Shown here piece after piece: positions 2,977-46,100 of a stretch of DNA of 64,000 nucleotides. Each line of letters starts with the position of its first letter. The stretch's first letter is position 1. Both the position numbers and the translations under genes were made by a program. This DNA comes from Ascidia mentula (taxonomy: Eukaryota > Chordata > Ascidiacea > Phlebobranchia > Ascidiidae): assembly GCA_947561715.1 (NCBI GenBank), contig OX387200.1:2792501-2856500 (forward strand). Reading direction: 5' to 3'. The notes under the pieces are model-generated. The model did no database searches and was not told where the DNA came from. It saw only the letters and a list, made by a program, of their open reading frames with translations.

Positions 2977-3522
2977 CACTACTCCGTTCTAACAAACTTT
3001 ACACAGAAACCTGCTTTTGGCATATTCTCTGCAACAAGAGCAAAGATACGTGTTTTTTTTGCTTGACTCGAGTCAATTTGAATTAGACGTTTTAGGCCGG
3101 TGGGAAATCGCAAACAATCTGAAAGTTGTCCTGAAATTTTTTCACTTGCAACATCAGCAAATTGAAATTAACAAAAACCATCCCCGTTAGCTGACGATCG
3201 AAGAGCACGCCAATATTTATTGCCAAACCTGTTCGCACATTTGTTAGTTTTTCGCAAGTCTTTCTGTTATCCCATGAGCGCAGCTAATATCTCCGTTTAA
3301 GATATTCGAAACGTTTTCATTATGTCATCATTGTCCGGTTAATCGTTAAACGAAAGCAGCTTTAATTTCTTTTTCAGAACAACATTTGTTTGTTTCTTTT
3401 TTTTCATCACAAAAACGAAAAACTTCCACAACTGTGTCAAAAAAAACAACAGATTTTCACTTAACGAAAATTATTCTGCAAAGCTCGAAAAAGTTTCATG
3501 ATTACAGAAATTTTATGTTGTG
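2977..3522. other. Intergenic interval between PHRF1-like and UQCC2-like genes
   Basis: About 550 nt without a coding signal. It should contain the PHRF1-like 5' region and the UQCC2-like 3' untranslated region, both on the minus strand. It is rich in A and T runs. I see no repeat or RNA gene in it. Confidence 0.5.
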
Positions 3523-3840
3523 CTAATTATTTTTCCTCGTGCTGTTCTTAAACAACTCATCGATTCCTTGCGTTAAGAAGTCTGCCGTAAAACCGGAATA
3601 GGTGGCTTCCGTTTTTCGGGGATACTCTTTCTTGTAACGGTCATCTGCAATCCTTTCCAAACATTCCACTGTCCGTTCGCACTTACCTGGATCCTCGAGC
3701 TGTGTTGCATCTCCATGAGTAAATTGCTTCTTTCCCACTTTCTGCATATGGTCTAATAAAGTCACCATGCTTGCCGATCTAGTTTCGTTTTTCGGCCATC
3801 GAGCACAAACGGATAAAAATCGCTGGTAAAGAGATGACAT
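3523..3840 (-). CDS. UQCC2: UQCC2-like mitochondrial complex III assembly factor
   Basis: A single exon of 105 codons. The protein opens MSSLYQRFLSVCARWPKNET, which corresponds to the YRRFLKLCEEWPVDET-type start of vertebrate UQCC2 (MNF1). The middle has the family's 'Y-K-x-E-Y-P-R' segment (YKKEYPRKTEATYSG) followed by a short C-terminal helix. The family acts in the mitochondrial matrix and is needed for cytochrome b synthesis and early assembly of ubiquinol-cytochrome c reductase. The vertebrate protein is about 126 residues, so this one is slightly short at the C-terminus. I chose ATG 3840-3838; an upstream in-frame GTG exists but leaves no space from the preceding gene. The start lies 5 nt after the stop codon of the UPF0235-like gene, implying one transcription unit. 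Confidence 0.85.
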   Translation of the reverse strand: MSSLYQRFLSVCARWPKNETRSASMVTLLDHMQKVGKKQFTHGDATQLEDPGKCERTVECLERIADDRYKKEYPRKTEATYSGFTADFLTQGIDELFKNSTRKNN

Positions 3841-3851
3841 TTTTTCTAACA
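3841..3851 (-). promoter_or_regulatory. Intercistronic junction; possible trans-splice acceptor formed by the stop codon
   Basis: On the minus strand the upstream gene ends ...GGGTGTTAG, followed by AAAAA and then the ATG of the UQCC2-like gene. The AG of the TAG stop is preceded by a T-rich stretch and would serve as a 3' splice site. Tunicate operons resolved by spliced-leader addition are known to have almost no intercistronic DNA. Use of this AG is inference. Confidence 0.5.
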
Positions 3852-4398
3852 CCCAACAGCCGCCTTTAGTTTGCTTTCGAGCTCCTCCGCAGTAAACCCA
3901 GCTTCAGAAGAGAGCTTTAAAACTTTATTTCTTGACCTTATGCCCTGCAATAAAGGAATAATTGATGAAAATGTGTCAACAAAATCAACGGACTATCAAC
4001 AGACACTTTACTGTTTGTAAAGTGACGTGGCGTTTATGGATGCCCAGTGTTGCTGCAACAAAACGACAGATCGCAACATTAGCTGCACCTTTCTGTGCTT
4101 GAGCAGTCACAGCTAGAACAATCCCTTCTTCAGAAAATCCTAAAAAAAATCAGAAAATTTCTTAACACCATACCCAACAAAATGTAAAAGAAGAAACAAC
4201 CTTTTATTTGGTCTTTTTTTGCACCAGGAGATGCACAAACTGAAATGAGGATGTTGCCACTTTTGTTTCTTATTATGCTTGTGGTAGTTGCAGCCAGCAC
4301 TTTTGTCAATGTATTCAACTGCTGCAAAACAACATTAAACACACTGTATGTTCTGAATGGTGGAAAACAACTTCAGAATCCACCTTTTGTCTTGACAT
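3846..4398 (-). CDS. C15orf40: UPF0235 / C15orf40-like protein
   Basis: Exons in minus-strand order are tentative 4398-4384, then 4321-4201, 4139-4012 and 3944-3846. The last three are well supported by consecutive phases and GT/AG sites. They encode ILISVCASPGAKKDQIKG, then EEGIVLAVTAQAQKGAANVA, then GIRSRNKVLKLSSEAGFTAE, ending with TAG. This is the UPF0235 (DUF167, YggU-like) fold: strand 'hAKPGSK', strand 'aP-eGkAN', helix and 'G-xSR-K-v-I'. The biochemical role of the family is not established. The proposed first exon has only five codons (MSRQK) and a 62-nt intron; it is chosen because its phase is right, but another 5' exon is possible. Total predicted length is about 120 residues, close to the human protein. 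It is the upstream member of a two-gene unit with the UQCC2-like gene. Confidence 0.8.
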
Positions 4399-4871
4399 TA
4401 CCAACAAAAGTCTATGAAAATGATGAAACAAAACCTAACCTAAAACCAATAATAAAAAGCATTGATCAAATTACGGGTATATATGCAGTTTTATTTTAAT
4501 ACTCATTACAGAAGGCACAACAGTGTGAGTCAGACATGATTTCTTTCCACCTAAACATGAATACTTCACATCACCCACTTTTATGCTCTAAAAATCTTGC
4601 ACATTACAAAAATAAAACTTTTGTTTTTCAATTTGAATGCAAGGTACATGGAACATCTTGAGAAACATGGAACATCTTGAGGGCATTGCAATGATGACAA
4701 AGTCATGCATGAGGATAAAAATAGGAACTACAGATAATTGCATAATTACACAATAAATGGCGGAAGAAAGTCAAACTAGCAAGCAATATATTGCACACTA
4801 CATGGTGAAGTTTGTAGCAAAAAGCTTCACAGATTACAGCAGTAATCAAACCAAACTATGATATAGTTTCT
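4399..4871. other. Upstream region of the UPF0235-UQCC2 unit / 3' side of HYI-like gene
   Basis: About 470 nt. It holds a short imperfect tandem repeat of about 19 nt at 4645-4682 (ACATGGAACATCTTGAG twice). No convincing coding exon is seen. Part of the interval is open on the plus strand, but that frame also reads antisense across UPF0235 coding sequence, so I did not call it. Confidence 0.4.
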
Positions 4872-5654
4872 TCAGTGACTCATGTAATCAGAATACCAGC
4901 GCAAACCCTCTGTTGTGGTTGAAGCTGGTGTGTATTCACATCCAATCCAGCCATCATACCTAAGTTTTTCAAGCAGCTCAAATATGTACGAATAATCAAT
5001 TTCCCCAAGAGTGTTTGGTTCATTTCTTTTTGGGACTTGGCTGATTTGAATGTGACCCAGCCTTGGAAATGTGGTATTTACAACATTGGTTAGGTTTCCC
5101 TCCATTAACTGCACATGAAAGAAGTCAAGCTGATACTTGATATTCGGTCGGTCAACCATATCCAAAACTTTCATCGCATCAGAGCTTTTATTTATAAAAT
5201 AATTGAAGTTGGTGGTGCAATTTTGTATTGGCTCAATTAGGCCAACAATGCCATGAGTTTGCAACTGATCAGCCGCATACTTAAGGTTTTCAACATAAGT
5301 TGACATTGCCTTCGATTTATCCATGTTAGGCTTAAGCTTTCCAGCCATAACATGCAATCTTTTGCAATCAAGGGCAGTTGCATACTTTATTCCGAGACTC
5401 AACTCGTCGCGAAACTTTTGCACATTTTCATAATCTGCAGCATGACCAAGGCTTTGAGCACATCCAGTGTTGATCAAAATCTGTTCAACGTTTGCCGCAT
5501 TTTTAGCGCCAATCAGTTCATCAATGGAATACTCGTGAGGCCATGCAAGTTCTACACCATCAAATCCAGCGCTTGCGGCCAGTCCGTATCTTTCCAGAAA
5601 AGGAGACTCTTTAAACATCCACGAAATGTTGGCACAAATCTTCAGTCTTCCCAT
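4872..5654 (-). CDS. HYI: Putative hydroxypyruvate isomerase (HYI-like), intronless
   Basis: One uninterrupted 260-codon frame from ATG to TGA. The order of conserved segments matches the HYI / xylose-isomerase-like TIM-barrel family: N-terminal 'ICANISWMFKE', 'GFDGVELAWPHE', 'VEQILINTG', 'CKRLHVMAGK', 'GLIEPIQN', 'YQLDFFHVQLMEGNLT', 'LGHIQISQVPKRNEP' and 'GWIGCEYTPA'. Metal and acid-base residues of the fold are visible as the Glu of IEPI, the Asp/His of DFFH, the His of GHIQ and the Glu of CEY. Bacterial relatives interconvert hydroxypyruvate and tartronate semialdehyde; the animal enzyme's substrate is less certain. Length is close to human HYI (about 277). The gene stands out in this intron-rich window by having no intron, which may mean retroposition or ancestral loss. 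Confidence 0.9.
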   Translation of the reverse strand: MGRLKICANISWMFKESPFLERYGLAASAGFDGVELAWPHEYSIDELIGAKNAANVEQILINTGCAQSLGHAADYENVQKFRDELSLGIKYATALDCKRLHVMAGKLKPNMDKSKAMSTYVENLKYAADQLQTHGIVGLIEPIQNCTTNFNYFINKSSDAMKVLDMVDRPNIKYQLDFFHVQLMEGNLTNVVNTTFPRLGHIQISQVPKRNEPNTLGEIDYSYIFELLEKLRYDGWIGCEYTPASTTTEGLRWYSDYMSH

Positions 5655-6849
5655 GTTGATTCAGTATAAAAAAATTTGAAACAAATCCACCGTTGATAAC
5701 AAAAAATATGCAGAGAACACGAACTCACGAGAAGTTAGATTTGTCGAAACGTCAGTCAAAATGTCATTCATGCGTAACGTTAAAAATAATAGAAATCTTA
5801 AGCAAACCTACTGGTGTAAAAACAAAAAAATGTAACAAAAAAACTGTTTTTACACTTTCCCCTGTAATAATAGTATTAAGTGATATTTACGCGTAAGAAA
5901 GTAAGAAAAAGCCTAGCGCAGTGTGTGTCCAAGCCAAGGCGGATAAATGGGAAGTATAGGGACCAATTGGTGCAGATTATAACTTTATATAAACCAAGAA
6001 ACATCAACATTTGTTTTGAAGAAACAATGGTGTTATTACTATTTGCAAATCGTTTTAAGAATCGATAACAATTAAAGTTAAAAACATCGTCAATTTTTTT
6101 GTGGCCTGACAATTAAGTTTTACTGAATAATTGCATGCAAAAAATAAGTTTTTGGAGATGGGGGGACAAAGCCCAGCTGTCGCTCCAAGCCGTGAGTCTG
6201 GACCTGAAATAACATAATTATCATTTATAATTTTGTGCGCGCAATTAGGATTAGGATATATCCTATCTTCAAACCGTACAAACCAAATTTGCCAAATAAG
6301 AGGCGGACACTGATGGCTGTTTTCTGCGTGCCGCATTGTACGAGCTTCCGGCAGCAGTGCGACGCAACCACCACTGACAGATCACAAATGAATTGTTTTT
6401 TCTGTTGCAATCATATGCCGATATTTGACGACGTAGAAACGGGGGTGTCCCAGTTAATTACAGCCCACAACACACATGCAAAAACTCACGTAGAACAATC
6501 TGGTTTCGATCCAGGCTTTGCAGCATATGTCACGTCGACAGCCGGACAATATGAATAAGCACAAGTATTACTCGTTTTGTCGCGCCCATGGAAATTCACG
6601 ATGCAAAATAATGCAGAAGTGTGCATTTGCTGGATCACAAAAAATAGACAATTGCCACCACAACTCACTCAAACCTGTTCTCATATCCCATAGCATTGCT
6701 AGACGAATGTGAAGGTATAAAATATATTGCCACACCAGGGTTAAAGGTAAAACAAGATCTTACAGGAACGATTAAAGTTACAGGAAAAAATAAACCGTTG
6801 TGTTGTCGTGTACCACGTAATATCTCTTAATAAGTGAATACACAGTAAT

Positions 6850-7180
6850 ATTGACAGGATCGCCCCACAGCGCAGGTCCTTGCTTGGCGATCACAGCTAT
6901 CGTATCGCGATCATTAGGTTTGCAGGCTTGATAGCCCAGGCATTGCAGCCAAGCTGAATCAGCCACTTTTTCCTGACAAGTCGGAGCAAGATTTGAAAAA
7001 TCAAGATCCCGGTGAAGTTTGAACTCACGACCCTGGGCTAACCAGGCCCAACGCTCTACCAACTGAGCTACAGGAGCTCAGTGGTTTCACGGGGAATATT
7101 GTGGCCAAGGTACACTGGAACTTGCCAGGCAACCTTCACATATACGTAGGGGATCTCTACCACCGTATCAGATAACGCAG
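6850..7180 (-). mobile_element. Longest copy of tRNA-derived composite SINE-like element
   Basis: Read on the minus strand. A leader (GTGAAGGTTGCCTGGCAAG ... CCACAATATTCC) precedes a tRNA-like head at about 7075-7007, with an A-box-like TAGCTCAGTTGGTAGAGCG and a degenerate B-box GAGTTCAAACTTC. A body follows, with the words GTGGCTGATTCAGC, GCAATGCCTGGGCT and GATACGATAGCTGTGATCGC. The anticodon-arm remnant pairs TGGGC with GCCCA around a 7-nt loop. The acceptor stem is mispaired, so this is not a functional tRNA. Composite tRNA-like SINEs have been described in Ciona; assignment to a named family needs a library search. Confidence 0.7.
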
Positions 7181-7202
7181 TAATATTTCATGCAATGGCA
7201 TG

Positions 7203-7350
7203 ATTGACAGGATCGTCCCACTGCGCAGGTCCTTGCTTGGCGATCACAGCTATCGTATCGCGATCATTAGGTTTGCAGGCTTGACAGCCCAGGCATTGCA
7301 GCCTAGCTGGATCAGCCACTTTTTCCTGACAAGCCACTTTTTCCTAAGTG
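7203..7350 (-). mobile_element. Truncated copy of composite repeat, adjacent to the previous one
   Basis: Near-identical to the body of the 6850-7180 element (shared GGTCCTTGCTTGGCGATCAC and TATCGTATCGCGATCATTAG). Head and leader are absent. A 'CAGCCACTTTTTCC' word is locally duplicated at about 7312-7345. Confidence 0.65.
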
Positions 7351-9430: not shown

Positions 9431-9443
9431 AATTTGCAGTAAC
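9431..9443 (+). promoter_or_regulatory. Candidate cis- or trans-splice acceptor just before CALHM copy 1 ATG
   Basis: AAATTTGCAG followed by TAAC and the start codon. The short distance to ATG is what spliced-leader addition produces in tunicates, but a 5' UTR intron is equally possible. Confidence 0.35.
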
Positions 9444-11574
9444 ATGGCAAAACAATTGACAAGTCTGGCAAAGAACGCCAAAGGTTTGGGCGACTACGCA
9501 GGTACAGCTGTGAACACAAGCATAGTGCTGGTGACCACGGGTCTGGAACAGCTCACGACCCTGGCAACATACCGTTGTCCGTGCGTTGACCCAACTCAAA
9601 TCAGTGGATGCAATCACACCATCGGCAAGAACGTTTGTAACACCCAACTTCTCAACTACGGCTACGGCCTTGTCTTCATTATCGCTCCGGCGATCGGGCT
9701 TTTGATCTTCGGGCTGGTTTCGAACCCGCGAATGTGGAAGTCTCTGACTGGAGTGTGTAGAAAAACTGAGGAACTAAAGCGAGGTTTCGTGGAGTGCGGT
9801 TGGACTTTCGTGGGGATCGCAGGTCAAGCCTTCATCGCACCCATCACGTGGGTTACCATAGCAATGCTCGACGGGCGGTATTACGCATGCGCAATTACTG
9901 CGCTGCCGTACGACACGGTCGGGGCAGGAGCGACACCGACATACGCCAACTGTGAGAAAGTGAGTGGTTAAAATAAGGTTTGTTGCATTCTTTGTTTCGT
10001 AAAACTGCAACGACATCTCGTTGTGCACGCGGACCACGTGTTCGTACATATACCAGGTCGATATTAGAGTTGCAAGCCTTGCTGGTTTCAGTGTGAAAAA
10101 AGTGTGAAAATATCGGTGCGCATTCTTGGTTCTGAAAAATATTCACACTCTGCTACATTTGGAATTGTATTTTGACTTTCCTATTTGCATGAATGCGCAC
10201 ATGGTCCCAAAATACCTCATCCTCTAATTGATTGTGGTGACGTCAATCAAGTTGCTACTTTACCGAAACAACTTCAACATTATATTCACTACATTGTCAT
10301 ATTTGCATCCTAATTTCACTTTCGAAACCAGATTAAAGACTGACTTTTCATAAGGGTCGTGTTAGGGCCTAAACTACAGAATCAGATTACAACTAATTTT
10401 TTCCATTCGCAATACCCCGTCTCAGTTCAATTGTCGTATACGTTATACACCCTCATACATTGCTACATGTTTACATGCAGGTGGCGCAGGCCAAGGTTCC
10501 CATAACTTCCAACCTGTACAACTCAAACCGAAGTTACTCGCAAGTGTTGGGTTGGATCATACTCGCTTCGGGGATCGTGCTTGGAATGATATTGTACGCC
10601 TACACACAATGCAACAGTCCACTCACTTACTACCACGCCAAGTACTTCCAGCTGTACAGATCGGCGGAAGAAGCGGAATTCGACGATGAAATGAAGAAGA
10701 AGGTAAATTACAGTGGTCACCTGGTGGAGAATGCGCACTTTTCTGTTTGAGAAGAAACTCGACGTTAAAATTTTACGAAAGTCCGTGATGGTTTTTTAAG
10801 TCGTTACTTTTAGGGACATAACTTACGTCTTTGTAAATCTTTAAGACAAACAACATAGCCCAAATAACTGATACTCGAAACGTTTGGTAATGAAAAATAT
10901 TTCCTAACTAGTACTTGATTCAGACCTTGATTATTTCTCTTTCACATGTTAGAAGTTTGGTTCGGATGATGATTAGTAATATTTATTGGAATCCTAATGT
11001 ATGGTTTGCAGTGAGCTGCAGACACTTAAACTTTGTGTTGACTTGCTTAGCTATTATCTATCAAGATCGCTGTGCACTGATGAGAACTTTTAGGCCGAAA
11101 CAATGGACTTGTCTGCAGCTAACTGGAAAGCATTGTTGGTTTTACTACTGTTTAGTTTTGCGTTTGTATATTTTCTCGACCACCGTTTTAACTGTTTCAA
11201 CGTGTTGAAATTGGGCGCGCCCCCCAAAAAACGGGTGATAACAGTAAAGAAAAAACTAACAAATAAACAAATGTCGTAATTTACAGGCGCAGAAAGACGC
11301 AGAGTGCAACGTGCTCCAGTTCATGGAAAAGCGTCGAAGCAAAACCGAATGGGATCAAATCTCGACTGTGTACGAGTTCCACCGCGACAAGAAGAACCTG
11401 GCCCTCTACTCCCATCTCCACGAGTGGGTTCTCAATCAACAGAAGAAGTCCCTGCTGAGGAAGCAAGGAGGCGAGAAACAACCTCTCATCGATGGAAAGG
11501 ATCATGAGGATGGGGAGGACAGAGGAGGAGACGTGAACAACATAACTGTGGTTGCCAATGTGATAAACACGTAA
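9444..11574 (+). CDS. CALHM-family large-pore channel, copy 1
   Basis: Three exons, 9444-9959, 10481-10702 and 11287-11574, all in phase 0, predict 341 residues. The protein has the calcium homeostasis modulator layout: a hydrophobic N-terminal segment (about 19-43), an extracellular CPC motif at residues 45-47 with further Cys in 'GCNHTIGKNVC', a TM after 'YGYG', a third TM at 'APITWVTIAMLDGRYYAC' and a fourth in exon 2 at 'SQVLGWIILASGIVLG'. The cytoplasmic 'YHAKYFQLYRSAEEAEFDDE' matches the CALHM 'KYW..Y...E..LFDE' helix. CALHM proteins form voltage- and calcium-sensitive plasma membrane pores that pass ions and, in some members, ATP. The C-terminus is charged and unlike vertebrate tails. 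A T-rich AG acceptor lies 4 nt before the ATG (TTTGCAG then TAAC), suggesting a spliced or trans-spliced 5' end. It is paralogous to the gene at 16328-18900. Confidence 0.9.
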
Positions 11575-14135: not shown

Positions 14136-16327
14136 AGCATCACGTGAACTTTAATTTCGTGTAGCGTCTGACGTCATAACACATCATATTTCTATATATC
14201 GCCATACAGCTACACAGACATAAACTCGCTTTCAAAGCACTGCATTTCGCTGTGCGCCTAGACCACACCGTCCTACTGTACCAGCATACACCTCCGTAAC
14301 CTTCATGATATAAATATGAAAAGAGTAGGCGAAATAAATAAGACCTTGTCACTGACAAAATCTTACCGGAATCGCGCTGTTTACATTTGGTTTAAAACAA
14401 ATGATTAAAACAAATATGCTTGGTTATGCGTTAACACTTTTAACTTTTCACAACAGAACAGATGTAATAACTACCGTGATCGTTTGGGACAGTGTTTTCA
14501 AAACTTCCGCGGAAAAACTGTAAGGTCATTTGAGTTTACAAGAAAGCCTCAAAACGTTAAACTGTTTTCATTTTGTTCTCGTGCGTTTGTGACCCAATAG
14601 CTTGACCATCATATTCAACAAATTTTGCCTCAAAAACTAAAAATAATAGTTCAAGGAACGCTTTATAAACACTATATAACCCCTTTGTTATGCAACTCTT
14701 TGGTTTCGCGGCACTTTGCTGCTTTAAGATTGTAATTATGCCTGCAAGCAAACACGCCGGTGTTTGTGTCAGGTTGCTTGCTAATTAAAAGACCACTTCA
14801 CGAGCGTTGCAGTTCAATGTGAGATGGCAAATCAATATTGCGGGTTGTAAACGTGAAATTATAAGGAATTTAGCAAAAGGCGTAACTGGAATGTTGAATT
14901 AGTTAAAAAGCTAACACAAAATAGGTAACATGGAATTACACTCGTAGTAAACCAGCACATTGTGACGCTCGCTCCGTACTTTAAGCTCAATGGCCACATT
15001 ATAGTAAACACGTATATAATTGAGGTTAAATATTTGGGAACACAATGGCTGCACATAATGTTATTTAAATCAACGGTATTTTCTATGCGTCACGGGAAAC
15101 GTTAACGGCCCACTTTGCATGTGTAAGCAAACTTGTTTCAGTGTCGCCAATGCAAGAGTAGGAAAAACATCTGTGACGTTTTAAACACAACCTGTGTATT
15201 GAGTCACATGATAAACAAGTCATCACCAACCGGGCAGGTCCGTTTCTTTAAAGAGTTTCTCCTTCTCAAATGCGTTCGTTTGCAATCGTTTCCGGCTTTC
15301 GGTGCATAGAAATAGAGGCAGTGTGCTGCTGGTAAGCCACTGCTGGGTACGTGATTCTTACGCTGCAGTGTAATGTGCAATGTCCCAGTTTGTCATTAAA
15401 ATTATGTAGCGGAGGTGTAAAATAGCATGATACATTGTGGCCTAGTTGCACTGCACGGAAATGCGCGTGGGATGCGGTTAGACTTCAGATTAGATGTTTT
15501 TGTTTACATCGTGCAGTTTTGCAGTTTCCTAATGTGTAACATAGTGGTTTTATGTAACACAAGCATGCTTTGTGTGTTATTTCATAATTGGCTACTTCTG
15601 TAGTAGTGAGTGAATTCGAAAAGACGTTGTGAAAGTCAAAACTAACGACATAGCATTGACATTTAACATAGGTATGGAAATAGGTTTTAGTTTCAACTTT
15701 TACTATGTGTAAAAGAGTATGGCAAGCGTCAAAAAACTTTCGATTAATTTCAGTCCCAACTCATGTTAGCCTTTAACGTCAGCTAAAGAAACGAAATACA
15801 GTTTGTATTTGTGCTGAAAAGGCGCCAGGAGACTGCAAGAATCGTGAAACAAGACTGGGTGTCAAATTCCACACATGCAAACGTGCGCTGTGCATTTACA
15901 ACGGAAATCGCCACGCGTCAAATACCATCAGCATTGCATCAGTTTTTCTCAGTAACAGAAGCAATGTAACGCGGAACAGTTTGTACCAAATTTCCCCCAA
16001 GCATTACCACAATTACGCCATAGCAACGCAGCACGTGAGTCAGACCAAGTTTCGCATCAACTTATCAAAAAAAGACGCTTTCTGTTACGCAGCGTGGTTT
16101 ACGTCAACGCGTTTAATCAGACACACAAAGCATTTGGTTTATGCAGGATTCAGAATCGTATGTTTTTAGGAATATGCATTTCGCTTTATGGTCATCGTTA
16201 CTCCTTTAATACAAATATAATTTTCGAATTACAATTGCAGTTTAATTAGAAATTGATGAAATCCCATTTATAATTGTTTGCTTTTGTCTTCTTCAAGCAG
16301 TTGTAGCTTAACGCTGGGAAAGATAGG
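14136..16327. other. Interval between CALHM pseudogene and copy 2
   Basis: No coding signal. The last 200-300 nt share short words with the flank of the pseudogene (GTTACGCAGCG) and with that of copy 1 (GCGTTTAATCAGA), so duplicated 5' flanking sequence is present. Confidence 0.4.
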
Positions 16328-18900
16328 ATGGCAAAACAACTGAGCGAGATAGCCAAGAAAGCTGGGGACTACGCAGGCACTGCCGCCAACACAGGAATAG
16401 CAGTTGCCACTGCTGGAATTGAGCAACTGACAACCGTTGCCGTGTACCGCTGTCCCTGTGTATCTACAAAGGAACTGGGATGCAACTTTACGCAGATAGG
16501 CAGCGCCAAATGCGCACACAATCTTAACCTAGGCTACGGTTTGTCGTTTATCGTGGCGCCGGCCATAGCGCTATTCGTATTCGGAATGATGTCCAACCCA
16601 AGGGTGTGGAAGTTATTGACTGGTTGCAACATCAAGAAGAGTCAAAATCAGCGTTCGGGGGGTTACTTCGCATGGACACTCTTAGAGGTGTCCGCTCTCG
16701 CCCTGATTTCGCCTATCACGTGGGTCGTGATAGCACTTCTGGACGGAAGGTTTCTGGCTTGCGCCGTTACCACCTTGCCTTACGACGTTGACCACAGCGG
16801 AGCTTCTTTCGCCTCGTGTGAAGCGGCAAGTATTAGTATTTGGCATCATAGGAATATTTTTTTAATACGCCGTGTCTGTCTCAGGTCTATAACTGTAGAA
16901 ATTGCACTGTTTCGGCAAAGCTGACTAAGAATAGAAATAGATAAAAGGTCCCTTCTTGAGTTTTGTTGTTAAGTTCAATTGTGGCCTCAAAGCATTGTGT
17001 CCAATTTTATAATGGTGATAACAGTTTTAAGAAAAAAACAAAATAGTGACCGCAAACAAGTTTTCCTGGGTAAAAGTTGTATTCATCAGGTGTTATTACC
17101 ATGCAGCAGTTGGTCGAGCTGGAAAAACATTTTGTTTTGCTGTGTTTGATATTTCACGTAGGTAGTAAAGCATTGGGCGTCGTTCTTTACAAATCGTGAA
17201 TCGCAATAGGTGCACTTTTGCTTTACAAATCTATAGCCTATTGTTGGTTCTGACGGGTTTCAAATTATGAACAGAACTGGTATTTATACCGTACAGCATT
17301 ACAGGGAATGACGTCACTGGACTTGAACTAAGGGTATTTCCGTTGCGTGACGGCTTGCTACATGACAGCATATACTTTCCTTCTGCTTCCATAACAATTA
17401 ATGTCACGATTTGAAGTGCGTTTGGTCGATGGAATAATTTCCCCGTGTTTGTTCGACAATATTCGAACCTTGAAACCACCAATCTGGTTTAAATAAGAAA
17501 ACCTTGATACCATCACATATTTGTAATATAATGATCTTACGGGACGAATATTATCTGCACCACAATGATTATCATGTCTTTTGTATTAAAACTCCCATGT
17601 ATTAAAACTTTCCAGACAACATCCAGCAAAACCAATCAATTCTCAAACGATTACGTCTACGGGCTTTGCAGCCCAGGCAATATTTAGCCTAGAGCTGGAT
17701 GAGCCACTTTTTCCCGATTAGGCTTACCAGACCCAATGCTCTACCGACAGAGCTGCGAAAGCTCAGCGTTTTTGCGGATATATTACAGTCAAGATATACT
17801 GGTGCGCAAGCACACAACCTTGCCCAGCGACCTTCATATATACGTGAAGGGATAGAGGATTTCAACCCAATTATCTAAATCCTGATGAAGGCTACTGTAT
17901 AGCAATCGAAACTTTGATGTAGTGAAAATTATTTCCAAAAGATCCATATTGTAGTAATAATCCAACAAAAACATTGAATACTGAAACGATATTTTTATTG
18001 TCCAGGTTGCGATTGCCAAGATCGTCTACACGTCGGATGCTTTCAACGACAACCGGAGTTTTTCGCAGTTCCTTGGGTGGGTCGTACTTGCTGGATGCCT
18101 GGTGGTCGGAATTTTCGCCTACGGTTACATGCAATGCAGTTCCCCGCTTACTTACTACCACGCCAAGTACTACAGATTTTACAGGAAGTCGGAGGAAGCA
18201 GAATTCGATGACGAAATGTCCAAAAAGGTAAGCGAGGTTTTCGAAGTTTAATTTGTGTTGGAAAAGCCGACACAGTCTCATCCAATAAATGGTTTTCAAT
18301 GAGTTGTTTACCATAACACTGAATGGTCCCCAGCTCACTGATATGACGTTAGGTCGAAACAGTGAGTACCACCGTCTACTGCTCACGATCTGTTTATTGT
18401 GCACGTATTCTTTCATGCAATTAGCTTTGATTCAGCTTGTATGGCTGCGATGTACATAATAGGTGTAAAGGCTTTCTTCAGGGGGAGATCCTGCCTCGGC
18501 ACACAAGAGTATGCATTGATTCCGCGTTAGAGCGTGTATATTCATCTTTTTATTTACACAAGTCACCATGACACGTGGTTTCAACCCTATATATGACGTT
18601 ATATAACACGTGATATATATGACGTTACAGGCACAGGTGGATGCCGAAGCGAACGTGCGCAAATTTATGGAGGAGAGGAGGGAGAAGAAATTGTGGGATC
18701 GGATTTCGACTGTTTACGAGTTCCACAGAGATCAGAATAATCTCGCTCTCTACTCCAACCTCCACCAGTGGGTTCTGGAGGAAGAGAGCGAGGAGGAGAG
18801 GGCACTCCTCGAGGAAGGAAGAGGTGAAGAGCACATGGAAGAAGTGCCTGATGTCGAGACGAGTTTGGGTTCCAATGGAAACGCTACAACAACTGTCTAG
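16328..18900 (+). CDS. CALHM-family large-pore channel, copy 2
   Basis: Three exons, 16328-16825, 18006-18227 and 18631-18900, predict 329 residues. Exon 2 has exactly the same length (222 nt) and phases as in copy 1. Visible CALHM features are YRCPC with 'GCNFTQIGSAKC', 'LGYGLSFIVAPAIALFVFG', 'SPITWVVIALLDGRFLAC', 'FSQFLGWVVLAGCLVVGIFA' and 'YYRFYRKSEEAEFDDEM'. Exon 3 retains 'ISTVYEFHRDQNNLALYSNL', nearly the same as copy 1. The tail is strongly acidic (EEESEEERALLEE). Intron 1 appears to start with GC (GCG then GCAAGT) because only that boundary keeps phase 0 with exon 2; the nearby GT at 16830 would shift the frame. Reading on into the intron gives an alternative short C-terminus to 16924. 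Role as in copy 1: probable plasma membrane ion/ATP channel. Confidence 0.9.
17645..17860 (-). mobile_element. Composite SINE-like element within CALHM copy 2 intron 1
   Basis: On the minus strand it has a leader (ATATGAAGGTCGCTGGGCAAG), a tRNA-like head at about 17760-17720 (CAGCTCTGTCGGTAGAGCA), then GTGGCTCATCCAGCTCTAGG and GCCTGGGCTGCAAAGCC. It is the same organisation as 6850-7180 but more diverged. Confidence 0.6.
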
Positions 18901-30757: not shown

Positions 30758-33700
30758 TCACTTGTTTCTCCCCAGAGTCCTCTGTTTCTCCGCGTGCTCC
30801 ACGGTCTTCTCCTCCACGAAAAGTCCCTTCCTCCTTCTGACAGAGTTCATGTATTTTGTGGCTTGATTTTCGAAGTCGGCTTTCTCCCCGAAATGTTGAA
30901 TTTCTTCCTCGGTCGTTGGAACCCAGAAAGGGTCACTCGTCACAACCTGCCGAAAATATTTGTTGTGTAATAGATCGTCGACCTGGATGGCTCAATTAGG
31001 AAAAAGGTTTCAGAATATTGGGGCGTTCAGCGCATGCTGTTACAGTATCATATTTAAGTGATCATGACAACCAAAACAACTAAGTAAGGTTGTTTTGTTA
31101 TGTGGGTGCAAAATATTTGGAGTTGATAACTTTGAAAATGAAAGCCAAAGCTAAAATGCTGTTAATCATATTCTTAGTAGACGTTTCGAACACTAACTGG
31201 GAACAGTTAGTGTTCGAAACGTTTACTAATGATTAACAGCATTTTAGATTTGTTTTGTTATATTTTACAAAACGAAGTTTTAAACAGTTTTTCACAATAT
31301 GGCGACTTGTGTTGTTTGAAGTCAAGCAAATGCAGGGTTTTGTGACGATCCGCTAACTCAGAAACTTACAGCTTGCCCAACCCAAGTATTTTAGATCCAA
31401 TAATCAAAATGTTTTTATTTTTGTGGTAAGAAGTCAAATATATTGTTACAAATACGAATTTAAAATTAAAACAAAAACCCACCTCCCAATGACTGAAAAC
31501 AAGTTGCGGGGAGGCGAGACCGCTCGTACGTTTTCGGATTTCTTCGGCAAATCCGAAACTTTCGGCGACAGGGAGTGTAGCGACGATGTTGAAAGAGCTT
31601 GAACCCTCACGCAAATCTTCCCTCAGAACTCTTCCCTCCCTACGCCCAAGCACCGCATACACTTTCCCTGTAGGAAAGAAACGCATTGCTAACTTGTTAC
31701 AAATGCAATCTTTGACTTTTGAAGCCCAGTAAGCCAAGTAGACCTAGTAAGTGCACGGGCAAAAACTAATCAAATCCAACTGTTAACTACACAGAGCCCA
31801 TTCATACCTAACACCTCTGCAGTAGCTTGTACGTCGCATGTGTACATTGCAGCCATTAAACGCTGGGGTTGAGTCTGGAAAGCTCGGCGGCAACATTCCT
31901 TAGTTGTTGAGATAAGTTGACCGGACATGGGGCCGTAGAAATGTCGGTCAGGCCTAAAAAAGATACGGAATTGTCAGAAAATGTAGCGTATGACACAAAT
32001 AAACAAAAAAAAATCGTATGAAAACATTTTTCCACTCCTGGAATCATTTTCCATTTTGTTGCAATTGCCCTGACTATTAACGCCATTTGCTTGATATAAG
32101 AATGCAAACGTTTGTTTCCAGGGTATAATCTGTATGCTTTTTTACTTACTGACAAATACATTTCGCTTTAAAAAGTATCGCCAGTGTCTTGATATGAAAA
32201 GAAACCAACGTTAAAGAAGTGATGGTTGTTTGGTAAAGAAATTACCTTCACAATATTAACCTCTGGATAATTTACATTCGAACCTCGTATTTGCCGTTTC
32301 TTTCGTTTCTCTCTCTTCGGCAAACGTAACACTTCGTTCAGTCGGCTCAACATCGCCGTCGTGCGGTTTCTCCGTCAACTCTAGCTCGCCGCTGGGTGTC
32401 AGTGACGGCGTGTTTCGCGCAGGAACCCGAGTTGTCCAACCTTCCACGATGAAACAAACACCGTGGAGCGGCTCCTCGCACAGTGGCCCAGACAATGTGG
32501 CCAATTGGAACCCACTGGCCACACTGTGGTCGCATTCACGGTAAGCACCGGTGACGTCATGAGCGTCGGCGTCCACGCACGTCCATATCGAGGGCCTCAT
32601 GTATTCCGGTATTAGATTGACGAGCAAGTTGGGCCCATTGCCTCGGGGCCCGAAGGACCAAATGCGTTCCACCACGCCCGACCACTTGCGGCGCCCCGCG
32701 GTCGTAAAGGACGTATCAAGGTCAAGTTTAAGCTTACGGAGAGCTGCCAAGGTCGCCGGTTTCACCTTCAGCTCGGCGTGTATTTTGGAGATGACGTCAT
32801 CGTCGTCGTTGTTTTCGTTGTTTTCGTCATCGCAGAACGAATGTCGTTCGGTCGGTTGCGATTCCTGAAACACACTCGAAAGTTAATAAACATGGTACTG
32901 GTCGTTACACTGTCTGAATGAAAATTCTTAAACATTTTGAAATGTAAACAGCTGAAGCAAGGTAACCGTCCGAGTCTTCCTTTGCGCCTTCTCTTAAAGT
33001 CATGTTTTAAATGAAAACCGACCTCCTCGTCCGTATGTGCGCTATCAAATGATTTACAAGTTCCAGTATGCCTTCTAGGCTGATTACAAAAATCATATCA
33101 TAAAAAACACGTTAGTAGCCCTTCTGGATAAAACATGTAAATGTATACAGCAGAGCTGAAGCTTAAAACAGTTCATTTAAAACAGCGCTGCAAACAGTAT
33201 AATAATTAATTTGAAAATAATTGTTTAAAGCTTGTTGGTTGTTGTACCTCAGTAGCACTTTCCTCTCCTCCAGTACTGCTCCCTGTACTCTCCAGTCTTC
33301 TTCTCCTCTGCAGGAAAATCTCCTTAACCTCCGTTTCCATCTGCTGGAGGACCCGGATCACCTCCGCGTTACGCTCCAACAGTTTTGTGACGTCAGGTGG
33401 GAGCGCGATCGCTCTAGCGAATTCGCATTCAATGTTATAAATTTTTCCAATAAATTCCTGGTTTGTGTACGTGGCTTGATGGCATTGGCTGTTAGATCTA
33501 AAGTTGGAATATATAGAGTAGCAAACATACCTCACGGAGAGTGTTGCTTGTTTATCAGGGGTCTGCATAACAACCGTGCTTTCCTTAGCAACGTTCGATT
33601 TTTTCGGGTGTTGTTGTCCGGTGTCGGTCAAGTTTGCGTCTCCACTTTCTTAAAACAAATCGTAAAATAAAGTTCGGCGTTGCCAAGGAAACTAACGAGG

Positions 33701-36700
33701 CACTTTTCCGCCTTCAGAACAAGCAGCATGTTAAAATCACATGATCAAAATTAGCCGCGCTCAGTTACCACGATTAACAACCGCCGAATTAAAGTAATGT
33801 AAGATCTTACCCTTCTCCCACTTCTGCATGAGATTTTTCTCCTGAGTTCCGATTAATTCGTTCATCATATCCACCTTGGGCGGGGGAATCACCGTTTCGC
33901 GGAATGGCACAATCGGTTCTGAAGCGTTAACCTCAATTTTAGCGAATCTGTATAATGATGAATTGTGGGTAAATGCATGTGACGTCATATTGATTTTACA
34001 TTAAAATATCATTGGTAAAAATTTAAAAATAACAAATGATAACAGCTTGTACTTAAAAAGGGCAGCGGTTAAGTTTTTTGTTTATTACATTTTTTAAACA
34101 TTTGTACAGATTTAACATTGCCAAATAAGACCCATGAACAACGATATACAAAGATTACATCAACTATTTTTTCTTTTTTTCCCATAAACTTAACTGTGTA
34201 TGGCAAACCATGGAATGTATTCTCTACAAAGTTCGAACAAACCTAGTTCTCAGGTCATCGAGACATCTCTGCAGATGAACTTCTCCTGCTGCGACGATCA
34301 CGTGTTCCCCAGTCTCCTGCACTAAGACTTGTACGCACGGGTCGGCTTGATTCAATAACTTCAATCCGTTCATCAAACTTCCCATTTCACCTGAAAAAAG
34401 GCACACTTGTGTATGGATTTTGAAGGTTAAATTAACATTAACATTAAACTACAGTATTAGGACATGTGAATTTAACAACAATGCAGACAAGACAACAAAG
34501 GCCTAGAATATCGTTTTTGTAGGACATGCGAAATGAGCCCCCACGTGAACACTTTGTAGTGTCAATTAAAACGCAACTTTAACTGCATTAAAAACAGTCA
34601 AATATGGGCAAAAACACAATTTTAGGGGGTGTTTTCACAAATTGACGATAAAAATTAAGCAATATTTTAAAATTTAAAAACTTACTGAGCAGCTTTGGTT
34701 CCACAGCTACACGGATAATGGGAGCGCTGTCAAGGGACAAAGCACTGAACGGAGGGCAGGCCACAGTGCTACTAAGTGTGGCAGAGTTAAGAATGTGATC
34801 CTCAAGGCCCCCAATACCTGAAGCAAAAACAAGGGTGAAAAAAATCATGAAGAAAATGTCTGTTTGATCGGCATTTTCAGTTTTACACAGAAGTTCTCGA
34901 TACGGTTTTCGATCGACAACGTGCAAGGGTAGCTTAGTTCTAATCTATATCCAATCAGGTTTCTAACAAGTTATATAAGAGCAAACCTAAGTCACCTGTA
35001 TTTCAGTTGTTTTATTTTTATATTTTTCGCATTAATTCGGCATCATCAGTATCACTTTTTCAAATAAAATCAATCAGGGTTCTATTATTATTTTCAACAG
35101 TAAAACATTTGCACTGGACAGAGCATTCAGACATTTGTGTTTGTTTCAATGCGACGTACCAACTATGCACCCAGCCGGTGCTTCTTCCACATTCTCCAAT
35201 TCCCTGCCCATCCACAAGTAAACGCTTGAAACACTGGCTTGGGTGATGTAAGGATTCGACGCGATCACGTCGTCCAGCTGAGTTTCATCCTAAATATCCA
35301 CAATGGAAAAGTCGTTTTTAAATTACAACGTAAAGTACTGGTTTCTGTAACTAGCATTAAAAGCAGATTAAACTAAGTCCAAATAAACTTAAACTGGAAA
35401 GTATGTGAGTAAAGCTGTTTTTTAAATTTCAGAGTTTTTTTTAAGTGGGATTCTTTTAACATTTTGGACATCTGAATACAATGCCTTTGTCGGTACAATT
35501 TCGGGAAAGTCCAACCAGCTTAATCAAGGTTACCGGCTTTCTTAACTTCAAAAGAAACTATACCTGCTCCAACGCATCTGTAAATGCCGAGGGATTGTGC
35601 TTGGGTCCCAACACGTATAATGTCTGCCCAGCCCGTAAAGTGCCGCTGAAAACCCGGGCGAACGCCACAAAATGTTGCTCCTTTTTCGGTTGTGTTTCTT
35701 CATTTTCCTGTGGCTGTTGAGCATTTTTAGACGGAGCCGCAGAATTGTCACATCCCATGGGTTTCGCACCCCGGGATTCCCCCTGTTCGTTTGCGGTACG
35801 TTCAGCGTGACGTAATCTCGCTGCTTCACGCCTTCGTTGAAGTTCTTCAGCCGTTAAGGGCCTAAAACATTTGGGTGAAAATAGAGATTACACAAAAAGT
35901 AAAAAATACTTTTAAGCATTTTTAAAGACAAAAAAACAAACATTTTGTAGCACTTTGCCGAAATTGTATACGGTTCTGAGAATAAAAAGACTGGCCCATA
36001 CTGTTATCAACATTGCCATGTTGAAACGTTTCGGCAAAAACTTATGCCATCATCAGTATGGGCCAGTGTTTTTATTCTCAGAATTATGAGTAGGGGTAAA
36101 TCCGTGAATTGTGTTACCATGTATACAGTTGTTTTATTGTTGCACAATCTTCATGTTCAAACGCGGGTTGCACGGAAACTTAGCAACTTATTTGCTGTGT
36201 TAAAAAAAATTTAATTTACCTCTGCTTATTTTCAGGAAGCACTTTGCTGTCCACTGCTACCATCTTTGAAACGAGGATAATCGGAATATCAGACGAAGAA
36301 TCGCATTTGAGAAATTCTGAGATGAAAAAAAATAAAACTTACAAGAAAAATACACGCATTTGTTTGTCTCAAAGCTATAAATTAACTTTTTACCTTGCTT
36401 AAGTGCCTGTGATGGTTCAGGGAGCGATGAAAAACTTTTTGTTGCTCCACACATCAAACCTTCTATCCTTTCTTCAGGTAAGTTGTTGGGGGATGGAATG
36501 TGGTGGCAAACACTCGCTTTAATACAAACTTTACATCAAACAATACACACCAATTAGTGTTTTCTATGTTATGAAATATGCATAAAAACACTGACAGCGG
36601 TAAAGGGTTGATTGACTGCTTGCCAGGGTCCTTTGATTCAACCAGATCAAGTTTACTTTCATTAATATATATGTGAATACTTTTTCACATTAACCAAACA

Positions 36701-38961
36701 ATACATATAATCATATTTTCAGGAGTCAAATTAAAAATTTAATATCTGCCAAGATATAAATTGTGCAACATGTAAGTAAGAAGAAAATTTTTTTTTTACT
36801 TACAAAGAACAGCTTTGGCAAGTGGCAGCCACTGACTGCAGATGGCGTGAAGATACGACTTTGGTTCAGATTTTGAAATTCTGCTGTCTCTTGCTGACAC
36901 TTTGATGTTTAAGGATGATGTGATCTTCTCACACCTTTCAGGATCCCTGAAGCAATGCGGTAAAATCTTTACATGGCAGAGTAAGTACAATGGATATTTT
37001 TATTTGCAAGTGGGCGCCTGACTCGATAACCTTTATGGTTTTATCGGTGCCTATGCCATTTCATTTCTTTGTATATTGTTCTTTGCTTAGTTGCTTTTTT
37101 CGCAAAATAAACATGATTTGATTTGAAGTCCTTACCTTCGAACCAACACTGTGTCATACAACGACCAAAGGTTTTCCAAAATAAACTGAACAAAAAGTGG
37201 TTTCTTCCCCTTTGTCTGCAAATGTTATGGTTCAGTTTTGAGTTTTTGTTTGAATCTTTCAAGATGTTTACCTGAGCACCTTTCACAATTTTCTTTGCTT
37301 TAGTGTTGACGTAATAATCACCCCACAGTGTTTTACAAAGGACTGATTCTTTTATTCCCAACTTTTCAGAAAAGAACTTTGCGAATGTCTGCACCCTTAA
37401 CAAGACAATATCCTTTGTTTATTTTTAACACAGTTGATACTTTTACAAATATTCTTTGCCAAATGTCACAATAAGAATCAACCAGTTCATTAGAAAAACT
37501 TTTAAACCCTTTTAAAACGCAAAAACTTTCTCGAAAAATTAAAACTTGAATTTACACTCAATACTCACTGAAAACCCCAACCATCAGCTGCACTGGCAAA
37601 CACTACATTTCCCTTTTCAGGCGCAAAATATAACTCTGTGTCGTCAATATCATCCAATCCACTGCTCCAGTCATATACTACCTACAATTTACAACCAGTT
37701 TAAGCTTACTTCTGGCCATTGAAGGAAAACATTAACAAACCGTACATTTCCATCCTTTAATCTCTTCTGCGTTTGTGAATTATTCTGGGCACTCTTTTCC
37801 AAAACTTCAGCAGTAAATAAACTGCCTGTAACAGCATTGATCTGCAAAAACACACAAAATACCTCAAAAAAAGTTTTACAGAAATATACCAGAAAGCTGA
37901 CTAAATAACATTAAACAAAATACAAACCCAAGCAGGTGTGTGTAAAATTTAAAGCATTTTATTGTTGCTTGCCGGGTGAAACTGTTGTTGGTTTCAGTAT
38001 TTATATAACCTTAAACATGCTGTATTCACAATAAGCACCTGTTCCATGAGTCTCTGCAAGTGCAAATGAGCTTCCAGAGGAGTGTAGCACAGCTCAGAGA
38101 TGAGGCGATCGACTTTGTTTAATACCAACACTGGAGTCAACTTTTCTAACCAAGCTTGCTTCAAAACAGCTTTTGTCTGCAAAGACAACAGTATTACATC
38201 AGTATACATCGAAAAATGTTTTGGTAACCTATATTGGTTAACAACCATTACCTGTGGACATACACCTTCCACAACATCGACAACCACAACAGCTCCATCA
38301 CATAACCGCACAGCTGTTGAAACTTCACTGCTAAAATCCACATGGCCAGGAGAATCAATCAGATTTACAAGAAACTCTTTGCCACCATCTGTTTTTTACA
38401 AGAAAATATAAAAATTAACAAACAGTTAGTTTTTGTGTCTTTTTCAAAAACATTCATGAGATAAATATGAAATGTAGGCAGTTTAATTTTATATACACTG
38501 TGAAATTGTTTCAAAACTACAATATCCGATAGAAAAACACACCTTGGCTGTAATGCAGGGCAATTGCACTGGATTTCATGGTTATTCCCCTCTTTTGTTC
38601 ATCTTCACGACTGTCCATGTATCTCAGCTAAATATAAAAGTTGAAATTAGGAAAAGTTGATGTGTAACGTATGTTATCTAACCTTTCCAGCCATTCGATT
38701 GGAAATGATACCATTGCTAGCAATGAGTGAATCTGCCAGGGTTGTCTTTCCTGAAAGGATTTGTGTTTGAGTTGTATAGTTAAACAAGATTAATGCAAAA
38801 CCATACCATGATCAAGAAAATTATCATATTAGAGTAATTCTATAGGCTATACTTACAACCTAAGTCATACCATGATCAACGTGGGCCAGAATACAAATGT
38901 TTCTCAAGTTGTCAACATTTTGCTGAAGTTCCTTAATTTTCTCTGTTGTCGTTGTCCGCAT
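30758..38961 (-). CDS. EFL1: EFL1, elongation factor-like GTPase 1 (60S ribosome maturation)
   Basis: Twenty-three exons with consistent phases sum to 3,525 nt (1,174 residues; human EFL1 is about 1,120). Exons on the minus strand: 38961-38871, 38750-38683, 38627-38543, 38388-38252, 38176-38039, 37841-37746, 37681-37569, 37395-37272, 37215-37136, 36946-36804, 36516-36394, 36316-36220, 35861-35564, 35289-35160, 34817-34686, 34390-34243, 33947-33811, 33648-33531, 33413-33248, 32864-32284, 31953-31808, 31677-31493 and 30946-30758. GTPase motifs are G1 AHVDHGKTT (split over exons 1-2), G2 'RGIT', G3 'DSPGH' and G4 'NKVD'. Later EF2-like parts include '[11 protein letters not shown]', '[10 protein letters not shown]', '[19 protein letters not shown]', '[12 protein letters not shown]', '[20 protein letters not shown]' and the end '[19 protein letters not shown]'. 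With SBDS the enzyme evicts eIF6 from cytoplasmic pre-60S subunits. Exons 13 and 20 contain charged, family-variable inserts. The exon 6 donor is the least sure border: only a GTACGG donor keeps the frame. Confidence 0.95.
31151..31247. repeat. Near-perfect long inverted repeat (hairpin) in last EFL1 intron
   Basis: Two arms of about 44-49 nt flank a 4-nt spacer. They differ by one 5-nt insertion and one substitution. The inner arms read CGTTTCGAACACTAACTG and its exact complement; the outer ends read CTAAAATGCTGTTAATCAT. It could be a foldback MITE or a very long hairpin RNA. Confidence 0.85.
35974..36083. mobile_element. MITE-like element with 30-nt terminal inverted repeats in EFL1 intron 12
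   Basis: The left end begins TTCTGAGAATAAAAAGACTG and the right end finishes in its complement. The two 30-nt termini differ at one position. The short interior contains CGTTTCGGCAAAAACTTATG. The 110-nt size and lack of coding fit a miniature inverted-repeat element. No clear target-site duplication was found. Confidence 0.75.
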
Positions 38962-43177: not shown

Positions 43178-46100
43178 ATGGCCCCTGACGCTGACAAGAA
43201 TGGCAACGAAAAGAGCTCGGTCCATTCGTTTGAGGTCAAGGTCAAAAGGTCATCGTCCGATGGCTCGTCTGTATTTGATGAGGAGGAGGATTACAAGTGT
43301 GGTTGGGGCAAGTTTACTCCATCCTGCCTCCAATTTTGCAACAACGCTAAAGGCTTCCTGGTGGCATATTGCTTTTTCGTCATTATTCAAGGTGGGTCCA
43401 AGCAATGTTATCGGTAAAAAACGAGTATTTACATTACGCTGTGATTCAATCAGTATTTAGCGTTTAAAACTTGTTATCGGAAAATGTAACGGTTAAAAGC
43501 GTGCAGTAACTATACAGTATGAACAGATAATTTTAATCTACACGATACCAACCCCTGGATGGCTGGATTTGGTCATCGGGCCAGAGTTAGTCCATGTCTG
43601 GTGTATACGGTTACAGTCAATGGATCAAACTTCCAAAACACGCCAACACAAATAGTTGCGAATTTTGCCCTATATTCCTGTTTTTGAATGCCATTTATAA
43701 ATGCACAAGATAAGGATGGAATAGGTTTAAACAGACCTGTTACTGAGGTATAATTGTAAACAACAGAACAATGTAAGTGTTGGGTATGTGTGCCGCCCAC
43801 TACTTACTGTTGGGTCATTTCCCATCTGACACAAACACTCAGCAATCGATCGATTAGGAGGACACATTGTTACGTAACAATGACGTAGAGAATAAACGCG
43901 TGGGAGGTTTATCCACAATGGAGTGATAGATGGCAAACGTCACAAAGGTTATTTGGACTAACCGGATATTGTAATACAAAGAAGCGTGTATAGTTGGGAT
44001 TGAAGGAATTGCACAAATAGCCCCAGATTTAAGATTGTACCCAAATGCCAAAGATTGCACGCACAACCAAGTAAAATATGGCAGAAATATATCCTTTTTT
44101 CAGCATTTTTCCAGCACGAAATGAAATGTTGTGCTGCTAACGTGCTTGTAACACCACCAAAACACATTTGAACGCTGCAGAGTCGATTTTGTCGATCAAA
44201 TACACTGCGTCCTACCTCAGCATATAATGAAGACTAGGAGATGTCATAAAAATCGCCTGGTTTAAAAATTAACCACCGAATCACGAGTTGGCATTGTGCA
44301 AGATGAACTGTACAGAGCATACGCGGTTGCATGATTTATTGCAGGCCAATGTACCTTGTGTCTGCAAATGTCAATATTAGTCTTACAAGGCAATGCCTCA
44401 CATGAAATCTGGCAGTTTTGTCCATTGCGTTCTTGCAAAGCAGTGTCACTCAAACTGTTTATAAGCGACGCACTTGGAAAAATTCACAGCCTTTGAGACA
44501 AACTAATTTTGTTTAAATTGTTGCGCGATGAACGCTACATCCGTCACGGTTCGACTATTTTTACGCGCTAAGGCCTCGTAAAGACCCGATTTCTCCACAT
44601 AAACACTTTAAAGGTGCCGAGACTGGTTTATTTTACAACAAATTCCGGGTATTAAAAATCCAGTTCTGGTAACACCGCGTCGTTAAGCTGTCGAACTGTT
44701 TGCACAACCTTGAGCAGCAGAAAACGAGTAAACGACACGTGAATGGTGAAGCAAACACTTACGTGCATGACATAACACATTCATTAATCGCCGCATAGTC
44801 TTTGATGTTAGGCTTGTTCCATTAATCATTGAGCATGACTTGGTCATTTTCAATGAAAAAAGACGACACCGGTGAATTTAACGTGAATTTTTCACCTTTT
44901 TCACTTCCCTATATATTTGAATAAAAAACTGGCGATTCTGTTACATCGAAATATGCATTTGTCTTTTATAAAAGCTGACCGACTTTAAATACACTATATA
45001 ACAAAACATTGAATCGTTGAGGGCGTGGCCTTGTGGGTAAAATTGGGAGGGATTCCTGTAACTGTTAACAGGAATTGCATTTCTTCTTGTGAATCTGCCC
45101 CCTGGTAGCGCACAACACATCATTAGTCATACAATACTGAAAACCCACAAATCTATTCTTTCAGGGTCCCTTGTAAACGGATTTGTCAACGTAAGCATCT
45201 CAACATTGGAACGGCGCTTCGGGTTGACGAGTTCGGAGACCGGGGTCATTTCGACTGGATACGATATCGCGTTCTGCGTCCTCACCATGTTCGTCACATA
45301 CTTCGGTTCCAGATCCCACAGACCGAGATGGGTTGGGATCGGTTGCTTCATCATGGGTGTCGGGGCGCTTGTCTTCTCTCTGCCACATTTCACAACCCCC
45401 AACTACGAGTATGCTGAGGATTTTACAGGTGGGGGTTTTTTCTGCTAGTTTTTAGACGTTATTTGTTGTTTTGTGAGCTGCTGACAAATGACCACTGTTT
45501 CGACATACAACGTCTCATCAGTGCAGCTTGGTGATTTATTATGATTGTGTGATGCTAAAGAAAAAAAAGATATTTAGTAACGTTTGTAAACGCATTTAGC
45601 AAGATGCAAACAGAGCCACGGTTTCTACCTCTCTTATCATTTGATCATATAAAGAGATATCGTATTTACTCCATTGCTTGTACATGGTTTTTAAAATAAT
45701 TGCAAACTTCTTTTAATCGCAACTTGTGGCCTACGTTGAAGAGTTTTTAAAACAGGATAATATTCCTTTATAAAATTTATGAGTTAATGATGTATTTGAA
45801 ATAATTGACCTAAAAGTGAGACTTAATGCTCTCAAATAACGCTGAGTGGAGTACACCGAATTATGATGAAATGAAACAAACATACAAGTCGTGAAATGGA
45901 AACCGAATAAACCGAAAAGGTTGCAGAGCAAAACGTCTATTATCGTGATTTCCTTTTGGAAATAAGGGACAAAAATTCCAATTATAAGGAGTTTCGTCAT
46001 TGCATGTGACAGTACTTTTCCATCGTGCAACGCATTCGAATATCATCACGCCATAACTGAGTCACTAACGGTCGATGTGTGCATATATATAGGGTCACAT

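Follow-up and report, generated by a model that had tools for sequence, protein, structure and literature searches.

The window, the whole stretch of DNA analysed here, comprises 64,000 nucleotides of the Ascidia mentula genome. Near its beginning, two genes follow each other on the minus strand with five nucleotides between the stop codon of the first and the start codon of the second. An earlier sequence-only reading had named their products as UPF0235-like and UQCC2-like and had concluded that no space is left for a 3′ UTR plus promoter. The gap is as described and lies on the minus strand, both gene names were borne out by matches that pass the Pfam cut-offs (DUF167 and UQCC2_CBP6, respectively), and coding regions only 5 nt apart indeed offer no space for a 3′ UTR between the genes.

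A C15orf40-UQCC2 pair with a five-nucleotide gap

The upstream gene, C15orf40/UPF0235, was assembled by hand from four exons, which are separated by introns of 61-67 nt and whose in-frame join yields a protein of 120 aa. The features of the pair are the following:

4384..4398, minus strand: C15orf40/UPF0235 exon 1, five codons; the least certain exon, placed by its reading frame only, without homology support
4201..4321, minus strand: C15orf40/UPF0235 exon 2; the joined protein matches DUF167
4012..4139, minus strand: C15orf40/UPF0235 exon 3; the joined protein matches DUF167
3945..4011, minus strand: last intron of C15orf40, proposed cis/trans switch (splice-site scores); donor ACA/GTAAAG, acceptor TTATTGCAG/GGC, the slash marking the boundary
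3846..3944, minus strand: C15orf40/UPF0235 exon 4 including the stop codon TAG (3848-3846); proposed AUG-free leader of UQCC2
3841..3845, minus strand: spacer between stop codon and ATG, consisting entirely of AAAAA (sequence reading)
3523..3840, minus strand: UQCC2, single exon, 105 aa (PF20180, E = 8.5e-15; translation; one match in the genome)

Read along the minus strand, the junction is TGT TAG (3848-3846), AAAAA (3845-3841), ATG (3840-3838). Since the ATG of UQCC2 begins 8 nt beyond the first base of TAG, its frame differs from that of C15orf40. Upstream of this ATG, the UQCC2 frame is open to 3903 only and contains no earlier ATG. For 678 of the 2245 ATGs counted on both strands of the window, a stop triplet of whatever frame ends no more than 5 nt before the ATG. 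The motif by itself is common, and what is notable is the presence of genuine genes on either side; as both frames were verified as genes, the short spacing characterizes an actual gene pair.

The C15orf40-type protein matched Pfam DUF167 with E = 1.5e-17, above the cut-off, and had three matches among solved structures at E up to 0.1. The best of these was 1n91 (E = 1.4e-4, the sole one below 0.001), and the weaker two, 1jrm (0.03) and a protein named UPF0235 PF1765 (0.055), pointed likewise. UQCC2, with a coding sequence of 318 nt whose stop codon ends at 3523, reached 55.5 bits against Pfam UQCC2_CBP6 compared to a cut-off of 27.9, and had no match among solved structures at E up to 0.1. 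Searches of the 195.8-Mb genome with either protein (E up to 0.01, best candidates scored) returned the junction locus only, so that a duplicate or retrocopy of UQCC2 was not seen. A retrocopy origin of the intronless UQCC2 gene was considered and set aside, as no second copy was found in the genome search.

PMC5814406 describes human C15orf40 as conserved, mitochondrial and uncharacterized, and gives mitochondria and nucleus in a table. A common mitochondrial role of C15orf40 and the complex III assembly factor UQCC2 is a lead only, and the functional link between the two proteins that had been read from their arrangement is no more than hinted at. We noticed no published description of the pair in a cursory literature search, the coverage of which did not extend to Satou 2006 and Matsumoto 2010. 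As far as the sources retrieved go, UQCC2 was named together with C15orf40 in the context of ovarian insufficiency and, among the matches listed, together with operons or trans-splicing in the context of diplonemids.

Spliced-leader genes and a same-strand neighbour

The genome was searched for spliced-leader (SL) genes with the 16-nt spliced-leader sequence of Ciona. With at most one mismatch, it occurs at 1409 + 1560 places in the genome, compared to 4 + 4 places for the reversed control. At least 45 exact copies, among the matches listed, form four runs with a spacing of 719-720 bp in the interval 15.2397-15.2914 Mb of C1. In 1400 bases of this array (two units), two exact copies alternate with two one-base variants, and the SL exons of both units are directly followed by GTAAGC. 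The units of about 720 bp at C1:15239200-15242200 hold one exact and one variant SL each. The genome has a tunicate-type SL RNA gene in a tandem array. The 16-mer is also scattered genome-wide in several repeated contexts outside the array; it is followed by GTGGAGCCG in five and by GTGCGGTCC in three of 20 contexts examined. These 20 non-array contexts, which divide into several shared or singly occurring types, are probably not SL genes, and their make-up suggests that the SL exon has been captured by mobile or retroposed sequences.

In Ciona, operons have been defined as same-strand gene pairs less than 100 bp apart, which gave 1,310 candidates, and 5′-full-length ESTs are reported to show that the operon genes abut directly (PMC2760879, Satou et al. 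2008). The SLOPPR re-analysis reports 1 bp as the median distance between cistrons in Ciona (PMC7986045). C15orf40 and UQCC2 lie on the same strand with 5 nt between their coding regions, and this gap fits the Ciona system, where the published distance is that between transcripts, from transcript end to acceptor, and not that from stop codon to ATG. As a same-strand pair within the published definition, the two genes are probably members of a known operon kind and would join the sea-squirt layout already described. The compact tunicate operon that had been proposed for them is supported by the gap and by the SL-bearing genome, and is likely rather than proven.

Ciona operons, as reported, resemble the locus in having close same-strand neighbours, and one SL serves all of their genes without intergenic DNA. 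They differ in that the upstream transcript abuts the acceptor and the 3′ end is not shared, whereas the coding regions of C15orf40 and UQCC2 themselves nearly abut, so that, unlike in Ciona operons, no 3′ UTR fits between them. Around 14 LSM-family matches, where upstream frames were judged by eye only, we found no clear case of another tight pair.

Upstream of C15orf40, on the same strand, lie a further gene and two candidate processing signals:

4872..5654, minus strand: HYI-like gene in one open frame (4872-5660), possible first cistron (PF01261)
4490..4495, minus strand: AATAAA, which may serve the HYI-like gene as poly(A) signal (hexamer scan)
4440..4441, minus strand: AG of the strongest candidate SL acceptor of C15orf40, first exon base 4439 (score 7.3)

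The HYI-like gene at 5654-4872, which we take to be of the hydroxypyruvate isomerase type, encodes a protein of 260 aa that matches PF01261 (xylose isomerase-like TIM barrel) over residues 25-255 with E = 3.1e-41. The candidate acceptor at 4440 exceeds 34 of 35 training acceptors and lies 41 nt from the ATG of C15orf40. Because the HYI-like gene is followed on its strand by the AATAAA at 4495 and this strong acceptor, the unit may be tricistronic. A single-exon first cistron, as the HYI-like gene would be, is a common trait of Ciona operons, with the first gene reported to be single-exon in 60% of them (PMC2760879).

Splice sites, poly(A) signals and how the two mRNAs may arise

Acceptors were scored with a position matrix built from 35 non-redundant of 53 acceptors of the same genome, the sites of C15orf40 being held out. 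Of these 53, seven came from OATP genes of the window (assigned by eye from paralogue alignments) and 46 from tubulin introns (GT-AG rule). The donor training set had 34 entries, comprising 25 distinct tubulin donors and nine OATP donors chosen by eye, with two that repeat tubulin letters; one GC-type OATP donor was left out, as were those OATP exon ends at which the boundary was unclear.

The acceptor of the last C15orf40 intron (3945) scored 8.4 and narrowly exceeded all 35 training sites (best 8.3), and that of intron 2, at 8.3, was likewise above 35 of 35. The donor of the last intron was lower than all 34 training donors, while those of introns 1 and 2 were above one and none of the 34, respectively. 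The donors of introns 1-3 being weak throughout, the gene as a whole combines poor donors with good acceptors. Two earlier models had been discarded. A tubulin-only donor model, since replaced, had placed introns 1-3 at percentiles 90.0, 78.9 and 60.8 among all GTs. A 10-intron acceptor model, dropped because its training included C15orf40, had ranked the acceptor of the last intron within the top percentile and had placed the AG of the TAG stop codon at the 62.1st, with 3901, 3914 and others above this AG.

A hexamer scan for poly(A) signals gave the following candidates:

3865..3870, minus strand: ACTAAA, weak poly(A)-signal variant, with 16 nt between the hexamer and the C15orf40 stop codon
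3361..3366, minus strand: ATTAAA, candidate shared poly(A) signal 3′ of UQCC2
3216..3221, minus strand (3221-3216): AATAAA, alternative poly(A) signal 3′ of UQCC2

ACTAAA is counted here as one of the known variants of the poly(A) signal. Neither AATAAA nor ATTAAA was found by the scan within 70 nt upstream of the C15orf40 stop codon.

As no 3′ UTR fits between the genes, their mRNAs most likely have a common 3′ end and distinct 5′ ends. We infer that C15orf40 and UQCC2, possibly behind the HYI-like gene, are co-transcribed as a Ciona-type, SL-resolved operon with a choice between cis- and trans-splicing at the last acceptor of C15orf40 and a common 3′ end. This is the reading that we tentatively prefer, at somewhat less than an even chance. 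By the cis route, the weak last donor would be joined to the 3945 acceptor, giving a C15orf40 mRNA in which the intronless UQCC2 gene forms the 3′ UTR. By the trans route, the SL would be joined at the same acceptor, giving a UQCC2 mRNA with the 16-nt SL followed by a 104-nt AUG-free leader. One pre-mRNA would in this way yield either the C15orf40 or the UQCC2 protein. A poly(A) signal inside the coding region would not be needed, and the ATTAAA at 3366 or the AATAAA at 3221 could serve both mRNAs. Exon-junction-dependent decay needs an intron downstream of the stop codon; as none follows that of C15orf40, its mRNA should escape.

A strong acceptor combined with a weak donor was found at the last intron, and intron 2 of C15orf40 looks alike. 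Because the other splice sites of the gene are similar, the last-intron scores support the proposed cis/trans choice only modestly, and the largely tubulin-derived training donors count against it. Exon 4 together with the A5 spacer contains no ATG in 104 nt. This absence is expected by chance (P = 0.61) and is weak support, since 61% of resampled sequences likewise lack an ATG. In Ciona, trans-splice sites are reported to be frequent at the first cis acceptor, the paired donor of which tends to be weak, in a study that covers non-operonic genes and leaves operon genes out (PMC11155486). That preference concerns the first site of non-operonic genes, whereas the candidate in C15orf40, an internal gene, is the acceptor of the last intron. 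A choice between cis- and trans-splicing at one acceptor is reported for sma-9 of C. elegans (PMC2904332); there it yields forms of one gene, while here it would select between unrelated proteins.

If the cis/trans choice exists, one acceptor decides between a UPF0235 protein and a complex III assembly factor, both proteins would be inversely coupled, and the locus offers a natural test of tunicate operons in which no 3′ UTR is available. As no more than an operon with a short gap, the pair would be a useful yet ordinary example. The sequence-only reading had remarked that the two products may compete. Such competition fits the last cis acceptor better than the TAG codon to which the remark had been tied.

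Under that original proposal, the genes would abut as members of an operon, and the stop codon itself would contain the acceptor. The SL would follow the AG of TAG, producing an SL-AAAAA-AUG mRNA for UQCC2, and the upstream mRNA would be cleaved at or just before this acceptor. We regard the arrangement as rather unlikely. It gains from the fact that, of the ten AGs of exon 4, TAG alone is a YAG, as are all 35 training acceptors, from the abutting pattern reported for Ciona, and from the weak ACTAAA 16 nt upstream. On the other hand, TAG scored only -4.6, which exceeds one of the 35 training sites and corresponds to the 57.8th percentile of 6539 AGs, and three other exon 4 AGs (first exon bases 3936, 3914 and 3901) slightly outscored it. 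Only seven pyrimidines occur in the 17 upstream positions, a number matched or undercut by two of the 35 training sites, and a standard poly(A) hexamer is absent from the 70 nt before the stop codon. The proposed use of this AG gains from its YAG context and is weakened by its score, and TAG is the weaker of the two candidate acceptors compared to 3945. SL1-type operons of C. elegans, as reported in PMC12582326, are similar in having no intercistronic sequence, the SL acceptor coming directly after the poly(A) site. In the pair studied here, by contrast, a weak acceptor stands at the point of abutment and is not closely preceded by any standard poly(A) signal.

If TAG were cut behind its T or TA, poly(A) addition would restore a UAA codon. 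Completion of stop codons by polyadenylation is known from animal mitochondrial genes. That UAG serves as such a processing boundary here, with the SL acceptor AG inside it, cleavage within the codon and polyadenylation completing UAA, is a very improbable special case. If true, it would be a nuclear gene whose stop codon is made by polyadenylation, in an operon without any 3′ UTR.

It is likewise unlikely, and slightly more so than SL addition at the stop codon, that UQCC2 has its own promoter within the introns or exons of C15orf40, the transcribed parts merely overlapping. The approximately 550 nt of the upstream gene, with its 61-67-nt introns, could house a start site, and two-promoter models are discussed for trans-spliced genes of Ciona (PMC11155486). 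Against this, operons of the best-studied relative are, according to the published accounts, defined in practice by just such short same-strand spacing.

We consider it improbable that both proteins are made from a dicistronic mRNA, by leaky scanning or by termination-reinitiation across the 5-nt spacer. Past its start codon, the 363-nt upstream coding sequence contains a single AUG, which is out of frame, and the UQCC2 ATG has an A at -3. However, a count this low is expected from the amino acids (mean of 1.9 upon resampling; P = 0.34), and an SL system able to do the job is present. AUG depletion was therefore rejected as a sign of dicistronic translation, being significant neither in the coding sequence nor in exon 4; in the comparison genes, counts were 20 versus 15.9 expected (HYI) and 6 versus 5.0 expected (UQCC2). 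To our knowledge, SL trans-splicing is not involved in the dicistronic transcripts of Drosophila. These transcripts, in which two adjacent coding regions are reported to share one mRNA (PMC4528330), otherwise resemble such an arrangement.

Finally, it would be most surprising if the two frames had come together by chance or through a local assembly error, the latter named as a danger by the sequence-only reading, given that both coding sequences are intact, family-matched and matched nowhere else, and that a 1-kb query spanning the junction has its own locus as the sole match in the genome.

Other features of the window

Beyond the pair and its neighbour, positions 6850-7333 contain a 131-nt direct repeat (96% identical, spacing 353) that flanks a predicted tRNA-Thr (7003-7078, minus strand; ARAGORN, bacterial code). 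The repeat-flanked tRNA is perhaps a tRNA-derived short interspersed element. Open frames of the calcium homeostasis modulator family (PF14798) at 9432-9971 and 16307-16924 on the plus strand apparently represent two gene copies. Those of an EFL1-type GTPase gene extend over 32256-38395 on the minus strand, with PF25118 passing the cut-off at 32259-32882 but not at 33209-33649, and PF00009 at 37997-38395. The plus strand of 45000-64000 carries OATP-family exons in apparent tandem copies, with PF03137 matches at 45062 and 47904 and paralogous exons beyond. At one OATP exon end, near 56520, an apparent GC donor stands where the paralogue has GT.
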